Part shown: positions 7,865 through 19,708 of the stretch, one piece after another
Layout: each line of letters starts with the position of its first letter
Position numbering within the stretch: position 1 is the stretch's first letter
DNA from: Actinomycetota bacterium
GTDB lineage: Bacteria; Actinomycetota; Actinomycetes; S36-B12
Assembly (NCBI GenBank): GCA_017857875.1
Contig: JAFMCH010000016.1
Coordinates: forward strand, 1-34,846
Reading direction: 5' to 3'
DNA length: 34,846 bases
The notes under the pieces: generated by a model
Database searches by the model: none
Seen by the model: only the letters and a program-made list of their open reading frames with translations
What the model was told of the DNA's origin: nothing
Translations under genes and position numbers: made by a program

Positions 7865-8781
7865 TTCGCCACCGTAAAACCGGTCACCTGGTCTAGGTTC
7901 GCTAAGGCGCGTGCGTACACCTCATCGGGGGTCAACCGACGCAGTTCCTCGGCTAAGAGTTCGGCAAGATGGCGACGAGATAGCGCAACGGGGGCGGGCG
8001 GTACGCCGGGCACGTTTAACATCGCCACCGCACCGTCGGGCCGATCAAGGCTCAAGGCGCCCTCGGTTGTCTCCAGGGTCACGTGCGTTATCCCCGGGCC
8101 GGGGGTCGGTGTGAACGTCACCTCGATGCCAAGATTGACCATTAGCCACGACGCCAGCAGCGATGCACTGGGACTAGCCCCGTTAACGCCGATATCAGCC
8201 GACATGACAGGCCCAGTGTGCCGATCGAGCATTGCGGCCAACACGCTGCGCCACGGGGTCAGCCGGGTCCAGGCGAGGTCGGTGTCACCGGGGGCATAAT
8301 TGAGCCGTCGGGTCTGCAGGGCAGACCACGGATCCGGATCGGCCGAACTGTCGGTGATCCGCCTCTGGGCGTGGCTGCCAATGTGGTCCCGGGCGAGGTT
8401 TTCCGGCGGATTACTCGGCCACCACGCGACGATAGGCGTGTCGGGCAGGAGCAACGGAATCACGACCGAATTGCCGTGTTCGGCTCGATCGCCACGCAGT
8501 CGCACCACCGCAACCTCGCCGGGGCCGTCATCGCCGCCCACGTTGATATCGGCATCGATGGCATCAGCATCGCCGGCTGGCCGCGGCACCAGCGTCAAGA
8601 TCCGCATCGGATGCTCGCGGGCGCTGTTGACCGCAGCCTCGGTTGCGTCGGCCTGATGTTCCTCGTCGCTAAGAATCAACAGGGTCAACACCATGCCGGT
8701 TGTCGGTGAGCCCATGCGGTGTCGTTCGTGACTGATGGCGCGGGCGATGTCACCGCCGCTGGTGTCGTGTAGGCGGATCAT
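7861..8781 (-). CDS. opcA: OpcA, glucose-6-phosphate dehydrogenase assembly protein
   Basis: OpcA is a partner protein needed for full activity and assembly of glucose-6-phosphate dehydrogenase; in Actinobacteria and cyanobacteria its gene sits next to zwf. The 306-aa start chosen here (ATG at 8781) overlaps the zwf stop as ATGA and aligns with the usual family N-terminus; an in-frame GTG at 8793 would add four residues. Family-like segments are the N-terminal GMVLTLLILSDEE stretch, the HPMRILTLVPRP strand, and VVIPLLLPDTPIVAWWP in the middle. It is the last gene of the leftward tkt-tal-zwf-opcA unit. The 6-phosphogluconolactonase gene often found beside it is not present. Confidence 0.93.
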   Translation of the reverse strand: MIRLHDTSGGDIARAISHERHRMGSPTTGMVLTLLILSDEEHQADATEAAVNSAREHPMRILTLVPRPAGDADAIDADINVGGDDGPGEVAVVRLRGDRAEHGNSVVIPLLLPDTPIVAWWPSNPPENLARDHIGSHAQRRITDSSADPDPWSALQTRRLNYAPGDTDLAWTRLTPWRSVLAAMLDRHTGPVMSADIGVNGASPSASLLASWLMVNLGIEVTFTPTPGPGITHVTLETTEGALSLDRPDGAVAMLNVPGVPPAPVALSRRHLAELLAEELRRLTPDEVYARALANLDQVTGFTVAN

Positions 8782-10298
8782 GGTCGACGCCACACACGGT
8801 CATCGCGTGACATCATCTCGTAGGCCGATGCTGGCCCCCATCCGCCGGATGCATAGGGCGGTGGTTGGCCCTGGGTCGACCAATGATCGAGAATTGGATC
8901 GAGAATCCGCCAACTGATGTCCACCTCACGCGCACCGGGAAATAACGGCGGATCCCCCAGCAGGACATCAAGGATGAGGCGTTCATACGCCTCGGGACTT
9001 GCGTCGACGAAGGAATCACCGTATTGAAAGTCCATGGTCACGTCGCGCACCTCCATTGCGGCGCTGCCGGGCACCTTGGATCCAAATCGAAGGGTGATGC
9101 CCTCATCGGGTTGAATTCGAAACACCAGGGCGTTGTCGGCTGAATCAACGACTGACGCCTCGCCAAAGGGAAGCCGCGGGGCCTTTTTGAAGATCACGGC
9201 CACCTCGGTGACTCGACGACCAAGCCGCTTACCGGTGCGGACATAAAAGGGCACTCCGGCCCATCGTCGGCTGTCGATATCGAGGCGGATCGCGGCGAAG
9301 GTCTCGGTCGAAGAATCCGGCGGAATGCCGTCTTCTTCTAGGTACCCGCGGACCGGGATGCCTCCCTGCCATCCTGTCGCGTACTGACCGCGTGCGGTGT
9401 GCTGGCCAATATCGTCGGGCACCTTGACGGCGGCTAGAAGTTTTTCTTTTTCTAGCCGGACCTGCTCGGGACCAAAGTTGAGCGGCTCCTCCATTGCCGT
9501 GAGTGCCAACAACTGGAGGAGGTGATTTTGGATCACGTCGCGGGCAGCACCGATGCCGTCGTAGTACCCGGCGCGACCGCCGATACCAATATCCTCCGCC
9601 TGAGTGATCTGTACGTTGTCCACGTAGTTGCTATTCCACAGCGGCTCGAACATCTCGTTGGCAAAGCGCACCGCGAGGATGTTTTGCACTGTTTCCTTGC
9701 CGAGATAATGGTCAATCCGAAAAATCTCATCGGGAGTGAACACATCGGCCAGAACCGAATCTAGATCTTCCGCGCTGGCGAGGTCATGACCGAATGGCTT
9801 CTCGATCACCACCCTCCGCCACGCACCCGGTTTGCGTTCGGCTAGACCGGTCGCCTTGATCTGTTGGACCACAACGGGAAACAGACCCGGAGGTATCGAC
9901 AGGTAGAAGGCGTGGTTACCGAGGGTTCCGCGTGCGCGATCGAGTTCGTCCAGCGTGCTGCGGAGCAGATCAAATGATGATCGGTCTGTCAGGTCACCGG
10001 CAACAAAGCGAATCCCCTGGGACAGTTGCCGCCACACTTCCTCTCGAAAGGGCGTTCGAGCATGCTCACGTACTGCGTCGTGCACCTCTTGGGCGAAGTC
10101 CTCGTTCTCCCACTCCCGTCGAGCAAATCCGACCAGTCCAAAACCAGGCGGCAGGAGACCACGGTTGGCTAGATCGTAGATCGCGGGCATGATCTTTTTG
10201 CGAGCTAGATCACCGGTGACACCAAACAGGACGACGGCGCTCGGCCCAGCAACTCGGGGGAGGCGGAGGTCTTGAGGATCCCGCAGTGGATTGGTCAT
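8778..10298 (-). CDS. zwf: Glucose-6-phosphate 1-dehydrogenase
   Basis: Oxidises glucose 6-phosphate to 6-phosphogluconolactone, the entry step of the oxidative pentose phosphate pathway and a main NADPH source. The 506-aa protein has the dinucleotide motif GVTGDLARKK (26-35), EKPFG with Lys167, and the active-site signature RIDHYLGKE with His197 and Lys201. Length is standard. The start codon ATG lies 37 nt from the tal stop in the leftward operon; the ribosome binding site is not strong. The stop overlaps opcA by 4 nt, matching the known Zwf-OpcA partnership. Confidence 0.96.
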   Translation of the reverse strand: MTNPLRDPQDLRLPRVAGPSAVVLFGVTGDLARKKIMPAIYDLANRGLLPPGFGLVGFARREWENEDFAQEVHDAVREHARTPFREEVWRQLSQGIRFVAGDLTDRSSFDLLRSTLDELDRARGTLGNHAFYLSIPPGLFPVVVQQIKATGLAERKPGAWRRVVIEKPFGHDLASAEDLDSVLADVFTPDEIFRIDHYLGKETVQNILAVRFANEMFEPLWNSNYVDNVQITQAEDIGIGGRAGYYDGIGAARDVIQNHLLQLLALTAMEEPLNFGPEQVRLEKEKLLAAVKVPDDIGQHTARGQYATGWQGGIPVRGYLEEDGIPPDSSTETFAAIRLDIDSRRWAGVPFYVRTGKRLGRRVTEVAVIFKKAPRLPFGEASVVDSADNALVFRIQPDEGITLRFGSKVPGSAAMEVRDVTMDFQYGDSFVDASPEAYERLILDVLLGDPPLFPGAREVDISWRILDPILDHWSTQGQPPPYASGGWGPASAYEMMSRDDRVWRRP

Positions 10299-10335
10299 GA
10301 GTGACTCATCGTCGCAGGTTATGGCCAGGGGAGAC

Positions 10336-11451
10336 TTAACGCAGTGCGGCTAGACGGTCGGCCACGGAGTCAAGTAGTTCTTGCCATGATGCTGCGAAGG
10401 ACTTCACACCGGCCGCCTCTAGGTCTGCGCACACCGCGGGTTCCAAGATGCCCAACGTGCCCAACTCCTGCCACACCGCCGCCGACTCCTGCTGAGTGCC
10501 AGTCACGGTGTCGCCGTCGAATACTCCGTGGTCTGCCACAGCTGTCAACGTTGCCTCCGGCATGGTGTTGACGCAGCCGGGCGCGGCCAGTCCGATGACG
10601 TAACGGGTGTCGGGGTAGGCCGGGTTCTTGACTCCGGTGGAAGCCCACAGCGGCCGCTGGCGATGAGCACCTTGAGCGACCAGATGAGCCCAGCGGTCGG
10701 TTGTCAGGGCTTGTGTGTACGCACCCCACGCCATGCGAGCGCTGGCCAGCGCGGCTTTACCGCGCAGATTAAGGGCCTGGGCGGAGCCATCGGTGTCCAA
10801 CAGTGCGTCGACTGCGGTATCAAGACGGCTCACGAAAAACGACGCAACAGAATGAATACTGGCGGGCTCGTGACCGCGGTCTAGGGCCTTTTCCAGACCG
10901 GCCTGCCAGGCATCTAGGACCGCGGCATACCGCTCGAGGGAAAAGATGAGGGTGACGTTGACACTGATGCCGTAGGACAGCACCTCGGTGATCGCCGGCA
11001 GGCCCTCCAGGGTGGCCGGAATCTTGATCAAAACATTGGGGCGGGCGACTTCATCCCACAATTCACGGGCCTGGGTAATCGTGGCATGCGTGTCGTGCGC
11101 CAACCGGGGATCCACCTCGATCGACACGTGGCCATCCACGCCACCGGAGGAGCCAAATAATGGGGCGAACAGATCGCAAGCGGCACGTACGTCGTCGGTG
11201 GTCATCGCCCGCACCGCACCTTCGGCGTCGGCGCCAGCCTTAGCCAACGTGTCCAATTGCGCGTCGTAAGCGGCGCTGTGGCCGCCGATGGCCTTAGCGA
11301 AAATGGTGGGATTCGTGGTGACGCCGCGCACGCAGCGGGTGTCGATAAGGTTCTGGAGCGACCCACTCGTGAGACGTTCTCGGTTGAGGTCGTCGAGCCA
11401 CATCGAGACACCGGCATCGGTGAGTTCGGTAAGAACGGCGGGGGTGTTCAT
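10336..11451 (-). CDS. tal: Transaldolase
   Basis: Transfers a dihydroxyacetone unit between sugar phosphates in the non-oxidative pentose phosphate pathway. The 371-aa product belongs to the long actinobacterial transaldolase type. The Schiff-base lysine is Lys143 in VLIKIPAT, and the N-terminal GVTTNPTIF motif (43-51) with its Asp-rich neighbourhood ([10 protein letters not shown]) is typical. AAGGAG lies about 9 nt upstream of the ATG. It is not fused to glucose-6-phosphate isomerase, as happens in some relatives, and no separate pgi gene lies nearby. It sits between tkt and zwf in one leftward unit. Confidence 0.95.
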
Positions 11452-11526
11452 GTGTGCGCTCCTTGATGTTCGGTCGGCAGTGCGGGTTCGCGTATGAAAT
11501 GTGACGGTTGGTCGCCCTGGTGGGGC

Positions 11527-13632
11527 CTAGTGTGCCAGGGATTCCTTGGCGGCTGTGACGATGGCATCGACCGTAATACCGAACTCTTGGTACAGGATTT
11601 CTGCCGCTGCGCTGGCACCGAAATGATCAAGGCCGATGGTACGCCCGCGGTCACCGACATAGCGGTGCCAGCCGAGGGTTGCACCAGCTTCAATCGACAC
11701 GCGTGCCGTGACGTTGGGAGGCAGGACGTCGTGGCGGTACTCAGCGGGTTGCTCATCAAACCAATCGATGCACGGCATGGAGACCACCCGCGTGGAGATG
11801 TTGTCGGCCTGTAACTGTTCGCGAGCTGACATCGCCAAGGCCACCTCAGAGCCTGTAGCCATCAAGATGACTTCAGGGGCGCCACCGTCACCCTCGGCTA
11901 GGACATAACCACCCCTGGTGATCTCCGTTGATCCGATGCTCTCTGTTTGTCTGAGCACCGGTAGGCCTTGCCGGCTGAGGATCAGGCCGACGGGTCGACG
12001 TTGTTCCAAGATCGCCAGCCATGCCGCGGCCGTTTCACGAGCATCGGCCGGACGTACAACGCTAAAGCCAGGAATCAAGCGCAGCGACCACAGATGCTCG
12101 ACCGGTTGATGCGTGGGCCCATCCTCGCCCAGGCCGATGGAGTCATGGGTCCAGACGAAGGTGGTGGCTGTACCCATCAACGCCGCGAGCCGAACAGCGC
12201 CCCGCATGTAGTCGCTGAACACCAAGAATGTGCCGCCGAATGGGCGCGTGAGTCCAGACAGTGCGATGCCATTCAAGATCGCGCCCATGGCGTGCTCGCG
12301 TACACCAAAGTGCAAAATGCGTCCATAGGGCGAGGATTCCGCAGACCCCGAACCGGCCGGTAGAAAGGAGAGACCGCCCGTGATGGTGGTGTCGTTGCTG
12401 CCAGCGAGGTCTGCCGATCCGCCCCATAGCTCAGGCAAGTCGGGCGCCAGAGCATTGATGGCCTTACCCGAAGCTGATCGAGTGGCGATTGAGGCACCAG
12501 TCTCAAACTGTGGCAGAGCGCCGGCCAGGTCAGTCGGCAATCGTTGCGACAGTAGCCGTGTCAGTAGTGCATCGTTCTGCGGGTTGGTTGCCTGCCAGGC
12601 CGCAAAGTGACGATTCCATTCATCGTGATCTCGTTGATGCTGGTCCTGATAGCCACGCGTGTAAGCAAGCACCTCTTCGGCCACGGCGAAATCAACGTCC
12701 GGATCCAGGCCCAACAGCGTCTTGGTCGCGGCCACTTCATCTGCTCCGAGAGCCGCGCCATGCGCTTTCGCTGTATTTTGGGCATGCGGGGCGGGCCAGG
12801 CTATGAGTGAGTGCATGGCGATAAAGGTGGGTCGTTCGGCCTCATTTGCGGCTGCGTCCAGTGCGGTCATCAGGCCATGCACATCGACATCGCCAGTGGG
12901 GGTCAGGCCGACCTCGTGCACGGCCCAGCCGTAGGACTCGTATCGGGCTACGACGTCTTCGGTGAAGGCAACGCGAGTATCGCCCTCGATGGATATGTGG
13001 TTGTCGTCCCAGATCACGGTGAGGTTAGCGAGACGCTGCGTACCGGCGATGCTTGAGGCCTCCCCGGAAATTCCCTCCTCGAGATCACCATCAGAGGCGA
13101 TAACCCATACCCGATGGTCGAAGGGACTGGAGGCGTAGCTGGCCGTCGGATCGAACATGCCTCGTTCGAATCGCGATGCCATCGCCATACCTACCGCGGT
13201 GGACAGTCCCTGGCCGAGGGGACCTGTGGTGGTTTCAACGCCGATTGTGTGTCCGTGTTCGGGGTGGCCGGGGGTCAGGCTGCCCCATGTGCGAAAGGAC
13301 TCCAAGTCATTCAGTTGCAGGCCGTAGCCGCTTAAGTACAACTGGATGTACAGCGTGAGCGACGAGTGCCCGCACGAGAGTACAAATCGGTCGCGACCCA
13401 GCCACGTCGGATCCTGCGGATCGTGGCGCAGGTAGCGCGAGAACAGCAAGTGCGCGAGTGGCGCGAGGGCCATGGCTGTGCCGGGGTGACCATTGCCCAC
13501 CTTTTGCACTGCGTCCATCGCCAACCCTCTGATCGTGGCAACGGTGGCGTCGTCCCGATGGGTCCATTCGGCCGCGGCGGGTCGAAGATCTAGGGGCGAG
13601 AGATTATCGGCAGATGATGAGGTGAGAGTCAC
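11527..13632 (-). CDS. tkt: Transketolase
   Basis: Thiamine-diphosphate enzyme moving two-carbon ketol units between sugar phosphates. From the GTG at 13632 the protein has 701 residues, the normal length. Evidence includes GNGHPG (47-52), the ThDP/metal motif SDGDLEEGISGEAS (180-193) with DDN at 209-211, the pyrimidine-domain FGVREHAMGA with the activating Glu446, and GEDGPTHQPVEHL later in the same domain. The frame continues upstream to 13878 for 82 more codons, but that part is low-complexity Leu/Pro-rich sequence read out of a tandem repeat and the antisense of ctaB, so it is rejected. A TAGGCT seven bases upstream of the GTG suggests a leaderless transcript. It is the first gene of the leftward tkt-tal-zwf-opcA unit. 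Confidence 0.96.
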   Translation of the reverse strand: MTLTSSSADNLSPLDLRPAAAEWTHRDDATVATIRGLAMDAVQKVGNGHPGTAMALAPLAHLLFSRYLRHDPQDPTWLGRDRFVLSCGHSSLTLYIQLYLSGYGLQLNDLESFRTWGSLTPGHPEHGHTIGVETTTGPLGQGLSTAVGMAMASRFERGMFDPTASYASSPFDHRVWVIASDGDLEEGISGEASSIAGTQRLANLTVIWDDNHISIEGDTRVAFTEDVVARYESYGWAVHEVGLTPTGDVDVHGLMTALDAAANEAERPTFIAMHSLIAWPAPHAQNTAKAHGAALGADEVAATKTLLGLDPDVDFAVAEEVLAYTRGYQDQHQRDHDEWNRHFAAWQATNPQNDALLTRLLSQRLPTDLAGALPQFETGASIATRSASGKAINALAPDLPELWGGSADLAGSNDTTITGGLSFLPAGSGSAESSPYGRILHFGVREHAMGAILNGIALSGLTRPFGGTFLVFSDYMRGAVRLAALMGTATTFVWTHDSIGLGEDGPTHQPVEHLWSLRLIPGFSVVRPADARETAAAWLAILEQRRPVGLILSRQGLPVLRQTESIGSTEITRGGYVLAEGDGGAPEVILMATGSEVALAMSAREQLQADNISTRVVSMPCIDWFDEQPAEYRHDVLPPNVTARVSIEAGATLGWHRYVGDRGRTIGLDHFGASAAAEILYQEFGITVDAIVTAAKESLAH

Positions 13633-13639
13633 ACCCGGG

Positions 13640-13645
13640 AGCCTA
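13640..13645 (-). promoter_or_regulatory. Candidate -10 of tkt, leaderless arrangement
   Basis: On the minus strand TAGGCT is followed by exactly seven bases and then the tkt GTG. A TANNNT element at that spacing would place the transcription start on or next to the GTG, as in the leaderless transcripts common in Actinobacteria. No clear Shine-Dalgarno sequence lies before the GTG, which agrees. No good -35 is visible. Confidence 0.45.
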
Positions 13646-13708
13646 GCGAGAATGGTCCCGCGACGCGTGGTCTCGGTAGACTCTGCGTAGTCTGGTGAAA
13701 CACTCGAT

Positions 13709-13780
13709 GCAGGTAACAGGGCAGGTAACAGGCCCGGTAACAGGGCAGGTAACGGGGCAGGTAACAGGCCCGGTAGCAGG
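13709..13780. repeat. Six-copy 12-bp tandem repeat (two nested 36-bp units)
   Basis: Six contiguous 12-bp units fill this stretch: GCAGGTAACAGG (13709), the same (13721), CCCGGTAACAGG (13733), GCAGGTAACGGG (13745), GCAGGTAACAGG (13757) and CCCGGTAGCAGG (13769). The order A-A-B-A-A-B shows a 36-bp trimer that was itself duplicated; the two trimers differ at two positions (13754 and 13776). The array lies in the divergent spacer between tkt and ctaB, just upstream of a candidate ctaB -10. It has no spacers and is not a CRISPR. Function is unknown; slippage-prone sequence or multiple protein-binding sites are possible. Confidence 0.9.
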
Positions 13781-13782
13781 CT

Positions 13783-13788
13783 TAGTAT
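13783..13788 (+). promoter_or_regulatory. Candidate -10 element for ctaB
   Basis: TAGTAT fits TANNNT and lies 28 nt upstream of the ctaB GTG, immediately after the 12-bp repeat array. There is no recognisable -35; at the expected spacing the sequence is repeat DNA. A purine-rich GGGAAGG lies between this element and the start codon as a ribosome binding site. Confidence 0.35.
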
Positions 13789-13816
13789 CGGAAACGAGTC
13801 GGGAAGGTGGTGGCGC

Positions 13817-14740
13817 GTGAGCGCCGTGGACCCACGCACGCGGGCTGCTGGCCCTGCGCGCCCACCCCGACGGGCCATAGTGGCGGCCTATGTCGCCATT
13901 ACTAAACCCCGCATCATCGAGTTGCTCCTCGTCACGACCGTGCCCACCATGATTCTTGCGGCCGGCGGATGGCCCGATCCCTTACGTATGATCGCTGTCA
14001 TCGTGGGTGGCACTCTCGCAGCCGCAGGGGCGAGCACGTTTAACAGCGTGTACGACCGCGACATCGATCAACTCATGGAACGCACCGCCCATCGACCGGT
14101 AGCCAGTGGACTCATCTCCGCTAAGTCTGGAACCATTTTCGGAAGCATCTTGTCGTTGCTCAGTGTCGTGATCCTGGCGGTGTTTACGACCCCGCTCGCT
14201 GCCGTGCTGGGTGCCATTGCCATCGCCGCGTATGCCTTTGTTTACACCGTGATCTTGAAGCGGCGCACGGCCCAAAACATCGTCTGGGGTGGCGCGGCAG
14301 GGTGCATGCCGGTCCTGATCGGCTGGGCTGCAATTACCGGTTCGCTCACCTGGGCACCTGTCGTGCTGTTTTTCGTTGTTTTCTGGTGGACACCGCCGCA
14401 CTACTGGCCATTATCGCTGCGATATCGAGATGACTACGCGAAAGCGGGCGTCCCGATGCTTCCGGTCATTGCGCCACCGAAGACTGTCATGCGTCACATC
14501 GGTGTGTATTCGGTACTGATGGTGGCAACCTCGTGGCTGCTTATTCCGGCAGGCAATATGGGATGGGTCTACTCGATCTCAGCCGGGATACTCGGGGTCG
14601 CATTCCTAGCGGAGGTGTTGCGGCTATGGCTACGGGTACGCACAGATGCTGCCGACCTCGCGCCGATGCGGCTTTTTCATGGGTCGATCACCTATCTAGC
14701 GTTGCTTTTCTTGGCCGTGGCGATTGATCCATTCGTGTAG
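13817..14740 (+). CDS. ctaB: Protohaem IX farnesyltransferase (haem O synthase)
   Basis: An integral membrane UbiA-family prenyltransferase that adds a farnesyl group to haem B, making haem O for cytochrome c oxidase. The 307-aa protein is largely hydrophobic with about nine membrane helices. Both Asp-rich motifs are present: N76-x3-D80-x3-D84 in FNSVYDRDID and the second at about 205 (RYRDDYAKAG). TKPRIIELLL near residue 29 and WWTPPHYWPLSLRYR are family hallmarks. The GTG start is preceded by GGGAAGG about 10 nt away. The last 49 nt overlap the 3' end of ctaA on the opposite strand. The next step, haem A synthase, is that neighbour. Confidence 0.96.
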   Translation: MSAVDPRTRAAGPARPPRRAIVAAYVAITKPRIIELLLVTTVPTMILAAGGWPDPLRMIAVIVGGTLAAAGASTFNSVYDRDIDQLMERTAHRPVASGLISAKSGTIFGSILSLLSVVILAVFTTPLAAVLGAIAIAAYAFVYTVILKRRTAQNIVWGGAAGCMPVLIGWAAITGSLTWAPVVLFFVVFWWTPPHYWPLSLRYRDDYAKAGVPMLPVIAPPKTVMRHIGVYSVLMVATSWLLIPAGNMGWVYSISAGILGVAFLAEVLRLWLRVRTDAADLAPMRLFHGSITYLALLFLAVAIDPFV

Positions 14741-15711
14741 CTGGGCACGCGCATCACGCCGAGCAGCAGCCACACGGTTATCGCCCACACCAGACATGCG
14801 CCGAGCATGTGCAGCGCGACCGGTGGCCAGGGCACCCCGGTGAAGTATTGGATGTATCCCACTGCCCCCTGCCCGACACTGACGCCCGCCAGCAGCCAGG
14901 CGCGTTTGCGCAGTGTAAGCGGCACGGGAACCAGGTACAGGGCGACCAAAATTCCAGCGATTAGACCTAGGAACAGCCAAACCGAGTCTGCATGCAACCA
15001 AGAGATCGTGCGTGGATCGATGGGAAATCGAGACTCCACACCGGCATCACCAGAGTGCGGGCCACTACCGGTGACGATGACGCCGAGAAACACCACGATC
15101 GCTGAGGAAATCAGCAGCGCGATGGCCAGAAGTCGGATAACGCGCGGTAACCGCACCGGGGGTTCCTGGTGTGTGGCCCCGCGCGGCTGGACCAGCGCTG
15201 ATTGAACAACCAGCACCACGCAGCCGGCAATGATGGCCATGGACACAAGGAAGTGTGCCGCGACGGCGTAGGGGCTAAGGCCAGTCAGCACCGTCACACC
15301 ACCCAGCAATGCCTGCACGATCGTGCCGATCAGCGGAACCGCTGCGAACGCGAGTAGCGAGCGAGGGTAGTACCGGCCAGCGGCCCGTCGGCGACGCCAC
15401 CACACGATCGCGGTCACGATCGCGGCGATGGCTAGTGCGGCCAAGACGAAGGTGAGCAGGCGGTTGCCGAATTCGATCGCCTTGTGCCAGGAGCTTTCGT
15501 CCTGGGCTGAGGTGGGCGTGAGTGAGCCGTCGACACACTCGGGCCAGGTCGGACAGCCAAGCCCGGAGCCGGTCAGTCGCACCAGACCACCGGTCACCAC
15601 GATGCCGATTTGGGCAACCAGGTTGGCCTGGAACAGCCACCGCATACCCCGTGTGACGCCCGTCGTTCCAACGAGCAACTCCTGCGGCGTCGCGATTGCG
15701 GTCACGCTCAT
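14692..15711 (-). CDS. ctaA: Haem A synthase (CtaA, COX15-like)
   Basis: Membrane mono-oxygenase converting haem O to haem A for aa3-type cytochrome oxidase. From ATG 15711 the protein has 339 residues and about eight membrane helices. A Cys pair typical of the family is seen in GCPTWPEC (Cys53 and Cys59), with His76 in SSWHKAIEFGNR and further His residues on later helices. The start is uncertain: ATG at 15711 is only one base from a TAGGCT element, whereas GTG at 15705 lies seven bases away, the same leaderless spacing as tkt. An upstream GTG at 15762 is less likely. The C-terminal ~16 codons are antisense to the end of ctaB. Confidence 0.94.
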   Translation of the reverse strand: MSVTAIATPQELLVGTTGVTRGMRWLFQANLVAQIGIVVTGGLVRLTGSGLGCPTWPECVDGSLTPTSAQDESSWHKAIEFGNRLLTFVLAALAIAAIVTAIVWWRRRRAAGRYYPRSLLAFAAVPLIGTIVQALLGGVTVLTGLSPYAVAAHFLVSMAIIAGCVVLVVQSALVQPRGATHQEPPVRLPRVIRLLAIALLISSAIVVFLGVIVTGSGPHSGDAGVESRFPIDPRTISWLHADSVWLFLGLIAGILVALYLVPVPLTLRKRAWLLAGVSVGQGAVGYIQYFTGVPWPPVALHMLGACLVWAITVWLLLGVMRVPSYTNGSIATAKKSNAR

Positions 15712-15712
15712 G

Positions 15713-15718
15713 AGCCTA
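15713..15718 (-). promoter_or_regulatory. Candidate -10 of ctaA, leaderless arrangement
   Basis: TAGGCT on the minus strand, seven bases before the in-frame GTG at 15705 (third codon of the annotated ATG start). The same hexamer and spacing precede tkt. If real, translation would begin at the GTG rather than the ATG. Confidence 0.4.
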
Positions 15719-15795
15719 TGCCGTGTGGAGCGTCCTCGAAAGTTGATATCGCCCGCCAGCACCTGCGGTCCTGGTGTGATGTTGATCGCATGCGG

Positions 15796-16572
15796 TCAAT
15801 CCCAGCGGAATGTGCGCTTGGCCAGAACTCCCGCGCCCACGAACCACACGATGAGAATCACCGCGACAAGCCCCAGATTGGTGGGGGCGTCAAGCATGGT
15901 GCCGCGCAGGCCGTCGCCAAGGGCGCCGCTAGGTAACACCCGAGCGATTGAGCCAATGGCGTCAGGTAATGCAGCGGCCGGCAGAGCTGTTCCGCCGGCC
16001 ACCAAAAGCACGAGAAACACTCCATTGGCCAGGGCAAGGGTGGCCTCGGCTCGAAGCAGACCGGCCAATGCGATGGCGCAGGCAGCCAAACTCACGGTGC
16101 CGATCAACAGGTATCCCAGCGCCGCGATGTCGCCTAAGTCCGGGCGCCAACCAAGACCTATCGCGACAGCCCCCAACAAAAGCGTCTGCGTGGCGACGAT
16201 CAGGACAGTCGACATTGCCCGCGAGATCACCAAATCAACCCGTGAAAGTGGCGTGGTGGCCAAGAGGAGGAGAGACCCGGAGCGACGATCGAATCCGGTC
16301 GCGATGGCTAGTGAGGCGAATGCGCTCGACAACACCGCCACGGTCAAAACCCCGGGCAACACCAAGGCGACGCGCGGGTAGTCAGCAGCGTTGTCGACAC
16401 CGGCATCGACGGGGATTCCCGTCGCCCACACCAGGCCGAAAAGCAAACCGATCGGAATCAACACCGTCAGGAGCAATTGCTCGCCGTTGGCGAGTGTCTG
16501 GCGGGTATCGAATCGGGCCTGGCGGGCGAGCAGACCCAAGCGACTGGGCGCTTGAATCACCGGTGTACTCAT
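15796..16572 (-). CDS. ABC-2 type transporter permease
   Basis: Membrane subunit of an export-type ABC transporter, 258 aa, with about six hydrophobic segments (near 32-52, 72-93, 110-140, 150-170, 175-205 and 232-252). It is co-transcribed with the ATPase upstream: the ATG overlaps the ATPase stop as ATGA. Pairs like this lie between ctaA and sufR in mycobacteria and other Actinobacteria, so the placement is conserved. The substrate cannot be told from sequence; relatives are often labelled antibiotic or drug exporters without proof, and a role connected with the haem A or Suf neighbours is only a guess. Confidence 0.85.
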   Translation of the reverse strand: MSTPVIQAPSRLGLLARQARFDTRQTLANGEQLLLTVLIPIGLLFGLVWATGIPVDAGVDNAADYPRVALVLPGVLTVAVLSSAFASLAIATGFDRRSGSLLLLATTPLSRVDLVISRAMSTVLIVATQTLLLGAVAIGLGWRPDLGDIAALGYLLIGTVSLAACAIALAGLLRAEATLALANGVFLVLLVAGGTALPAAALPDAIGSIARVLPSGALGDGLRGTMLDAPTNLGLVAVILIVWFVGAGVLAKRTFRWD

Positions 16573-17534
16573 GGTGTGCCTCCTACGGAGGCGGGCGTGC
16601 TTGGCCCATCACCGGTGATGTCCCAGTACCTGTCCTCCAGGCGCGTGCCACCGACTCGCAAGCCGCGCGCCATAACTCCGTGCTGGCTGCACCAAGCCGT
16701 GACGGTGGCCAGGGTCTGAGGCGACACGTCGCCAACAATGCGATACCTACCAGGCGAACGCTCCTCCACGTTTGCGGTGGCACTGAGCGCCGATTGCAGA
16801 CCGGTCAGGTCTAGGTGAAGCGGAGCATCGAAATCGACCGACTCACGGGCCTGGGCAAGCACCTGGGTGAGTGGCTCTTGTAGTCGGCACACGCCCTCGT
16901 GAATGATGATCACGTCATCGGCCAGGCGTTCGGCCTCCTCGAGGTCGTGTGTACACAGCACCACGGTGACGCCCTGGCGGCGCAGGGCATCGAGTGCCTC
17001 CCACACCATCAATCGGCCCGGCGGGTCAAGGCCTGCGGTGGGTTCGTCGACGAACACCAAATCGGGGTGCCCTACCAGCGCGCAGGCCAAAGCCACACGC
17101 TTTTTCTGCCCGCCGGACATACGCCTAAACGTGGTGCGGCCGATGCTATTGAGGTCTAACTGGTCGATCCAATACTCAGCTGACTGGGCAGCGCCCCGAA
17201 GGCCGGCGATATGTCGCACGATGGAGGGGCCGCGGGCACCGGTGGGGATGCCCCCCTCCTGCAACATCACCCCCAGCCGCTGCCGTGCCGAGAGTGATCC
17301 GGCGGGTGCTTCAAATATCGTCGCCGAGCCTGAATCGGGCCGAACAAGACCTGCCAAGACGCCCAGGGTTGTGGACTTACCGGCGCCATTCGGGCCCAAG
17401 AGGGTGGTGAGGGCGCCAGGCCGCACGCCCATAGTGAGGCCCCGAAGTGCTCGGGTCTTTCCGTAATTGACGACCAAGTCATCTGCACGAGCGGCCCAGA
17501 TTTGCCCAGTATGTGCCTGCTCGTCGCTCACCAC
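16569..17534 (-). CDS. ABC-2 transporter ATP-binding protein
   Basis: Cytoplasmic ATPase of the export system whose permease follows. The 321-aa protein has Walker A GPNGAGKST (47-55), signature MSGGQKKR (139-146), Walker B LVFVDEP (159-165), D-loop AGLD and the switch His in CTHD. A further ~100 residues after the ATPase core form a C-terminal extension without a motif I recognise. Two adjacent GTG codons (17534 and 17531) could start it; the second lies six bases from a TAGACT -10-like element, fitting leaderless initiation. It is divergent from sufR across a 57-nt spacer, so the two promoters probably overlap. Confidence 0.9.
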   Translation of the reverse strand: MVSDEQAHTGQIWAARADDLVVNYGKTRALRGLTMGVRPGALTTLLGPNGAGKSTTLGVLAGLVRPDSGSATIFEAPAGSLSARQRLGVMLQEGGIPTGARGPSIVRHIAGLRGAAQSAEYWIDQLDLNSIGRTTFRRMSGGQKKRVALACALVGHPDLVFVDEPTAGLDPPGRLMVWEALDALRRQGVTVVLCTHDLEEAERLADDVIIIHEGVCRLQEPLTQVLAQARESVDFDAPLHLDLTGLQSALSATANVEERSPGRYRIVGDVSPQTLATVTAWCSQHGVMARGLRVGGTRLEDRYWDITGDGPSTPASVGGTP

Positions 17535-17537
17535 GTC

Positions 17538-17543
17538 AGTCTA
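17538..17543 (-). promoter_or_regulatory. Candidate -10 of the ABC-2 operon, leaderless arrangement
   Basis: TAGACT on the minus strand followed by six bases and the GTG at 17531. No Shine-Dalgarno sequence precedes the start. It lies in the short divergent spacer shared with sufR, so SufR binding nearby could also affect this promoter. Confidence 0.42.
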
Positions 17544-17579
17544 GGACCCCTCCGATTTTGCGCTTTGTCGTATTTCCGA

Positions 17580-17595
17580 CACACTAGGGGTGTGA
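17580..17595. promoter_or_regulatory. Probable SufR operator overlapping the sufR start codon
   Basis: A perfect inverted repeat CACAC-N5-GTGTG spans 17580-17594, and the same bases read ACACT-N5-TGTGA at 17581-17595. From memory, that second form is the site reported for mycobacterial SufR upstream of its own gene; this recall should be checked. The right arm contains the sufR GTG start (17592-17594), so a bound repressor would sit on the promoter or start region and block the whole suf operon. Confidence 0.6.
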
Positions 17596-18299
17596 AATTC
17601 CCCAGCCCCGGTGCCGAGCGCATTGCTCGTGCCCTGAATGACTCAGGGCCGAGCACGGCGACGGCGTTGGCGAGCCGGCTGGAACTCAGCGGCGCGGTGG
17701 TACGGCGCCATCTGGACGCGCTCCTCGAAGCCGGTCTAGCCACAGCCAGTGAAAGCCCGCCTTTCGGTCCGGCTCCCGACCGGCGTCGAGGCCGACCGGC
17801 CAGAGTGTTCTCGCTCACCGATGCTGGCAGCCACACGTTTGATGTTGCCTATGACGATCTGGCCGTTGGTGCATTGCGATTTATGCGCGATGAGACCCCG
17901 GCCGGCACCGTCGAGGCGTTCACCGGGCAACGCGCCACAACGTGGGCGGAAAGCCACCAGGCACGATTCGACGCACTGAGTGTGGACGATGTTGATGGGC
18001 GTGTGCAGACGCTGGTTGATGTGCTGACCGAGGATGGCTACTCAGCAACCCTGGCCGACGGCGGTCAACTCTGCCAGCATCACTGCCCGGTTGCACATGT
18101 GGCGCAAGAGTTTCCACAGATCTGCGAGGCCGAAACCCAAGCCTTCGCTCGATTGTTAGGCACCCACGTCATGCGAATCGCAACGATTTCGCGTGGTGAT
18201 GGTGTGTGCACCACCTTGATTCCGACGAGCCGCACGTACCCGCACCATGCACAACTGCCTGCACGACCCGCGAACGAACAACGGAGGTCCCTCGCATGA
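17592..18299 (+). CDS. sufR: SufR-type Fe-S-sensing transcriptional repressor
   Basis: SufR is a winged-helix repressor that senses its own iron-sulfur cluster and controls the suf operon. The 235-aa protein starts at a GTG inside a palindrome. Residues about 15-50 form a helix-turn-helix ([20 protein letters not shown]), followed by a wing with [16 protein letters not shown]. In the C-terminal half, Cys residues in [11 protein letters not shown] and the following FPQICEAE provide the three-Cys set expected for cluster ligation in actinobacterial SufR. An in-frame extension to 17502 lies across the divergent promoter and is not used. The stop overlaps sufB as ATGA, tying regulator and operon together. 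Confidence 0.92.
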
Positions 18300-19708
18300 C
18301 AACCACCTCTCATCCCGAACTCGACGGTCTCGGTCGTTATGACTACGGCTGGCGCGACTCTGATGCTGCCGGTATCAACGCTCGCCGTGGTATTTCTGAG
18401 GATGTCGTTCGCGAAATTAGTGCACTGAAGGACGAGCCCGACTGGATGCTGCAAATGCGATTGAAGGGTCTGCGCCTGTTCGAGCGCAAGCCCATGCCCG
18501 TGTGGGGTTCGAACCTCGGCGGGATCGACTTCGACAATATTAAGTATTTCGTGCGCTCGACTGAGAAGCAGGCGACAAGCTGGGAAGAACTGCCCGACGA
18601 CATCAAGAATACCTACGATCGACTGGGTATCCCAGAGGCAGAAAAGCAGCGACTAGTGGCCGGTGTGGCGGCACAGTATGAGTCGGAGGTCGTGTATCAC
18701 CAGATCCGCGAAGACCTAGAAGAGCAGGGGGTGCTGTTCTTAGACACCGATAGCGGTTTGCGTGAGCACGAAGATCTATTCCGGGAATACTTCGGCTCTG
18801 TTATCCCCGTGGGTGACAATAAATTCGCGGCGCTCAATACCGCTGTGTGGTCGGGCGGTTCGTTCATCTATGTACCCAAGGGGGTCAAGGTAGAGATCCC
18901 CCTACAGGCCTATTTTCGCATTAACACCGAAAATATGGGCCAGTTTGAACGCACATTGATCATCGTTGATGAGGACGCGTATGTGCACTACGTAGAAGGG
19001 TGCACCGCTCCGATTTACTCCTCTGACTCTTTGCATTCGGCCGTGGTCGAAATCATCGTCAAGCCCAACGCCCGTTGCCGCTATACGACGATTCAAAACT
19101 GGTCGAACAATGTTTACAATCTGGTCACCAAGCGCGCGGTCGCCCAGCGAGGCGCCACCATGGAATGGGTTGATGGCAACCTGGGCTCGAAGGTCACGAT
19201 GAAGTACCCGGCCGTATGGATGACCGGCGAGTACGCCAAGGGTGAGACCTTGTCGGTGGCGTTTGCCGGTGAAGGCCAGCATCAAGATGCCGGCTCCAAA
19301 ATGGTGCATGCCGCTCCGCACACGTCGTCGAACATCGTGTCGAAGTCGGTGGCCCGCGGCGGCGGTCGCACCTCATATCGCGGCTTGGTCCAGGTGCTTG
19401 AGGGTGCCTATGGCTCCAAGAGCACCGTGAAGTGTGATGCGTTGCTCGTCGATGACATTTCACGCAGTGACACCTATCCGTATGCCGATATCCGTGAAGA
19501 CGACGTGTCGATGGGGCATGAAGCCACCGTCAGCAAGGTCAGCGATGACCAGCTGTTCTACTTGATGAGCCGCGGCATGACCGAGGATGAGGCGATGGCA
19601 ATGATCGTGCGTGGGTTCATTGAGCCCATCGCACGTGAACTTCCGATGGAATACGCCCTTGAGCTCAATCGCCTCATTGAACTGCAGATGGAAGGGGCCG
19701 TTGGCTGA
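18296..19708 (+). CDS. sufB: Fe-S cluster scaffold protein SufB
   Basis: SufB is the scaffold subunit of the SufBCD complex on which Fe-S clusters are built. The 470-aa product begins at an ATG with GGAGG nine bases upstream; the frame is open back to 18206 but that lies inside sufR. Family blocks include [14 protein letters not shown] near residue 79, [34 protein letters not shown], the beta-helix core with [11 protein letters not shown], and [20 protein letters not shown] near the C-terminus. Length is typical. It overlaps sufD by one base (TGATG). Confidence 0.97.

Follow-up and report, generated by a model that had tools for sequence, protein, structure and literature searches.

Bacterial minisatellites, or VNTR loci, are arrays of short tandem units that are used for MLVA typing. 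The array described here resembles them in its short units, near-identical copies, nested duplication and restriction to one lineage; VNTR loci vary in copy number within species, whereas our array is known from one genome. The nearest functional precedent is the group of phase-variable promoter tandem repeats of Mycobacterium tuberculosis (dop, lpdA and cysG), which are described as repeated promoter elements (PMC12817950). The two cases are alike in having tandem repeats by the 5' end of an actinobacterial gene, but in M. tuberculosis, on the description given there, the promoter itself is repeated (PMC12817950), whereas here the array lies downstream of a predicted -10 element, in the leader. 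A further likeness concerns the neighbourhood of the array and not the array: TANNNT-type signals around 12 bp upstream are described as marking leaderless genes in Actinobacteria (PMC3160421), and the TAGGCT before the transketolase gene at our locus has its first T 13 bp upstream of the GTG start.

The window, by which we mean the whole 34,846-nucleotide stretch of DNA analysed, contains a minisatellite of six 12-bp units at 13709..13780, to which no strand is assigned and which can also be read as a tandem duplication of 36 bp x 2. Direct reading, Tandem Repeats Finder (TRF) and a repeat search (start-to-start spacing of 12) agree on the order A-A-B-A'-A-B', with units beginning at 13709 (GCAGGTAACAGG), 13721 (GCAGGTAACAGG), 13733 (CCCGGTAACAGG), 13745 (GCAGGTAACGGG), 13757 (GCAGGTAACAGG) and 13769 (CCCGGTAGCAGG). 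The 36-bp halves differ at two positions, 13754 and 13776, each an A in the first half and a G in the second. The original prediction of an A-A-B-A-A-B arrangement with two differences between the halves is therefore borne out, as is its count of the core motif, GGTAAC in five units and GGTAGC in the sixth. TRF scored the array 102 at period 12 (6.0 copies) and 130 at period 36 (2.0 copies, 94% matches), and the best score in 200 dinucleotide-preserving shuffles of the whole window was 76. Head-to-tail copies, a unit of at least some 10 bp and a score far above chance are what define a minisatellite, and the array has all three.

The array stands between two divergently transcribed genes, both recognized above curated cut-offs: tkt, encoding transketolase (11527..13632, minus strand; TIGR00232, 742 bits), and ctaB, encoding haem o synthase (protohaem IX farnesyltransferase; 13817..14740, plus strand; NF003349, 410 bits). 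By eye, the GTG starts of both align with those of congeners, and with tkt beginning at 13632 and ctaB at 13817 the spacer measures the 184 nt (13633-13816) originally given. Within 8778-19708 of the window, tkt is followed on the minus strand by tal and zwf, and beyond ctaB lie a weak match resembling haem A synthase (14692-15762, minus strand), a DrrA/DrrB-like ABC transporter pair below curated cut-offs, and sufB. The open frame of tkt extends upstream through the array to 13878, with LLPG/LLPA repeats; we rejected an N-terminal extension of transketolase because in relatives, too, the gene begins at the GTG 7 nt beyond TAGGCT. The ctaB frame is also open across the array, and was set aside because by eye it holds no ATG, GTG or TTG upstream of the GTG before a stop.

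Upstream of ctaB we predict a -10 element of the TANNNT type, TAGACT (13677..13682, plus strand), from a by-eye match to the TAGACT, TACACT or TAGTGT that 12 relatives have at the equivalent position; a second TANNNT sequence, TAGTCT (13688-13693, plus strand), fits the consensus. The -10 element predicted for tkt from its conservation in relatives, TAGGCT (13640..13645, minus strand), is only 7 nt before the GTG at 13632, so that tkt is probably leaderless. The two would form a compact back-to-back promoter pair (13640-13682), in which the gap between the divergent elements is 37 nt; it is 37-39 nt in 10 of the 12 relatives and 50 nt in the other two, both congeners, making 37-39 nt in 11 of the 13 measured spacers when our own is included. 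The 12 relatives comprise three congeners and nine members of one other genus of the family, and gap and leader lengths were taken for 13 of 14 spacers (L113 was left out), with the -10 and start motifs entered by eye. The exact tkt element (AGCCTA) is present in 24 of 75 family spacers and was not found in 51, so the predicted promoter core is supported only for the window's own genus and one other. A sigma-70 consensus scan did not report the predicted -10 elements, its sole site lying inside tkt on the minus strand (9 of 12 matches); as predictions, the elements of tkt and ctaB rest on consensus and on their conservation, judged by eye, in two genera.

With respect to these elements, the array starts 26 nt beyond the -10 element predicted for ctaB and therefore falls within the predicted ctaB leader, downstream of the inferred transcription start, and leaves promoter spacing unaltered. 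By motif measurement this 5' region, from the predicted -10 element to the start codon, is 134 nt long (13683..13816, plus strand), and it includes a Shine-Dalgarno-like GGGAAGG upstream of ctaB (13801..13807, plus strand, from sequence reading). A promoter tandem repeat includes or respaces promoter elements; our array does neither to the elements as predicted, and the gap between them is that of most relatives without an array. For the predicted elements, this contradicts the earlier suggestion that the duplication could alter promoter spacing.

The distribution of the array could be assessed across the family. We searched 85 family genomes for ctaB, of which three gave no match and three with partial or weak matches were left out; removal of four of the 79 loci for want of a tkt motif within 700 bases (L110, L117, L118 and L179) left 75 spacers with a divergent tkt. 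The array is present in one of these, its own, and the other 74 are without it. In the three congener spacers there is no array at a TRF score of at least 40, and comparison of the spacer DNA with them gave no match spanning the array, the sole match in congener G003 (56 bp at 71%) lying over the promoter core. This absence at the same place in relatives marks the array as lineage-specific and, with halves that are 94% identical, upholds the idea of a recent nested duplication.

Unrelated arrays occur in the same tkt/ctaB spacer of two loci from other genera: one of 13 bp x 4.3 (score 56) at L177 (G083:C106:32000-32800), by eye in the ctaB leader, and one of 16 bp x 2.6 (score 77) at L128 (G100:C11). 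Three further family spacers have two-copy repeats scoring 44-47. In a wider, partly overlapping set of 67 distinct spacers (out of 77, from 110 loci), only the arrays of the window and of L128 score at least 50. The view that such duplication is uncommon in a compact region thus holds in part: among the family spacers scanned the array is alone of its kind, but two of the 74 others carry unrelated arrays at scores of at least 50, besides those with two-copy repeats. A phage origin was considered and dropped, the spacer having no match in the phage collection, and a literature search on the divergent ctaB/tkt arrangement found no work that was, by its title, about the tkt/ctaB spacer.

The leader that holds the array is variable in length. 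From -10 element to start codon it measures 134 nt with the array and 62 nt without it, compared with 49-64 nt in the nine members of the second genus and, among the three congeners, 84, 122 and 156 nt; in the window's own genus, leader length drifts freely even without repeats. Short-period arrays also occur elsewhere in the lineage. At a score of at least 60, TRF reported 8 rows from 234,251 sampled bases of the window's own genome and 20 from 387,977 bases of congener G003, and 12 of these 28 rows, representing 11 places outside the window, were checked for reading frames. At ten of the 11 places the array overlaps an open frame of 134 aa or more (that of L170 reaches the contig end and was seen on one strand only), and at the eleventh (L158:280-342) only frames of 85 aa or less overlap; these are open frames, with an identified gene only for ScpB. 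That gene, in congener G003, has a 12-bp x 4.7 array (L152:16765-16820) coding for repeats near the N terminus, and in the window's own genome a 12-bp x 4.1 array of a different unit (L147:5252-5300) overlaps a minus-strand open frame of 134 codons. With 10 of 11 checked arrays in long open frames, a non-coding array is somewhat atypical: the arrays of the lineage are mostly in frame where checked, and one in a leader is rarer, though not unique.

Several functions can be imagined for an array in such a place. Slippage might make unit number vary within the population and so tune ctaB, and through it the supply of haem o, by analogy with the promoter repeats of M. tuberculosis (PMC12817950); the high identity of the copies would suit a switch of this kind. 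We consider it unlikely, since the array lies outside the predicted promoter core, unlike the repeats described in that source, and the predicted accessibility of the ctaB start codon is nearly constant, at 0.87-0.97 with 0, 36, 72 or 108 bp of array. The Shine-Dalgarno-like stretch is predicted to be somewhat less accessible when the array is removed (0.40, against 0.53-0.57 with it), so that there may be a small effect. A structured RNA leader was rejected: such a leader would match a known family or fold well beyond its shuffles, and here an Rfam scan to E 1 gave one match, scoring 19.1 against a gathering score of 34, on the other strand and outside the array, while the folding z of the ctaB leader is -0.92 (33 of 200 shuffles equally or more stable). 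Improbable, too, is translation of the array itself, for which a putative open frame offers a candidate (GTG...TGA, 13695..13820, plus strand; 41 codons, or 37 from the ATG at 13707). It would encode a peptide of (Q/P)VTG repeats, and its TGA overlaps the ctaB GTG by 4 nt (GTGA), so that ctaB might be translated by coupling; the 12-bp units keep frame, and a change in their number would alter the length of the peptide and never its frame. That 10 of the 11 other strong arrays checked overlap long open frames argues in the same direction, as does the relative L107, in which an open frame ends 4 nt into ctaB, though it has 7 codons. Against this, frames of at least 30 codons whose stop overlaps the beginning of ctaB by 1 or 4 nt arose in 110 of 2000 shuffled leaders (237 of 2000 at 20 codons or more), third-position G+C in the array frame is 0.54 compared with 0.67-0.68 in tkt and ctaB, and no Pfam match was found at E 0.001. 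A leader peptide would be expected to appear as a conserved frame ending at the downstream start, yet a comparable frame of 30 codons or more is absent there from all 12 relatives measured, leaving one of this length in 1 of 13 spacers. That the array should encode part of a leader peptide whose translation is coupled to ctaB, and also, through in-frame slippage of 12 or 36 bp, provide a graded and reversible setting of haem o strikes us as very unlikely.

More doubtful still is the proposal that the GGTAAC array supplies several binding sites for a regulator of ctaB or tkt, for which six copies of the core at regular spacing might be taken as a sign. A search of the genome, a 2.27-Mb draft in 117 contigs, turned up no other array of the motif, and the array is not conserved in relatives. 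Single matches are not above the control: at up to two mismatches the motif has 15 matches (12 forward and 3 reverse), five of which are the array and 10 of which lie outside it, and the reversed pattern also has 15. The best partial DNA match outside the array is a single one of 26 bp (G000:C62, E 0.016) that overlaps a two-mismatch motif match. The DNA helix makes a turn in about 10.5 bp, and successive steps of 12 bp leave one face of it; the core, moreover, is asymmetric, and no inverted repeat of at least 12 nt was found around it. Least probable of all is an artefact of a metagenome-assembled contig. The draft state of the genome, of which the window is one entire contig, gives some cause for suspicion, as does the fact that the five named relatives closest by CtaB protein are all metagenome-assembled Actinomycetota (four titled 'Candidatus Nanopelagicales'; top identity 75%); the genome is itself most likely metagenome-assembled. 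However, the array copies differ at single bases, both flanks match relatives in order, and the 72 bp of the array are shorter than a typical short read.

We therefore think it likely that the array is a young minisatellite, specific to its lineage, in a tolerant ctaB leader, and that its effect on expression is probably small. Its growth would have begun with duplication of a 12-bp unit by replication slippage or unequal recombination, taking A to A-A-B; the resulting 36-bp trio would then have been duplicated once and have gained two single-base differences. Such growth would have taken place in the least constrained part of the spacer, the stretch of ctaB leader that separates the conserved -10 element from the ribosome-binding site, where the array may be close to neutral: it would add 72 nt to the leader, while the start of ctaB and both predicted promoters would stay as they are in relatives.

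Among the 13 spacers measured, the more conserved feature is the predicted divergent promoter pair, with its gap of 37-39 nt in 11 of them, and not the array. The locus also carries a caution, in that a repeat between divergent housekeeping genes looks regulatory, and aligned relatives place its growth outside the predicted promoter core. If its copy number varies, the array would be usable as a strain marker.
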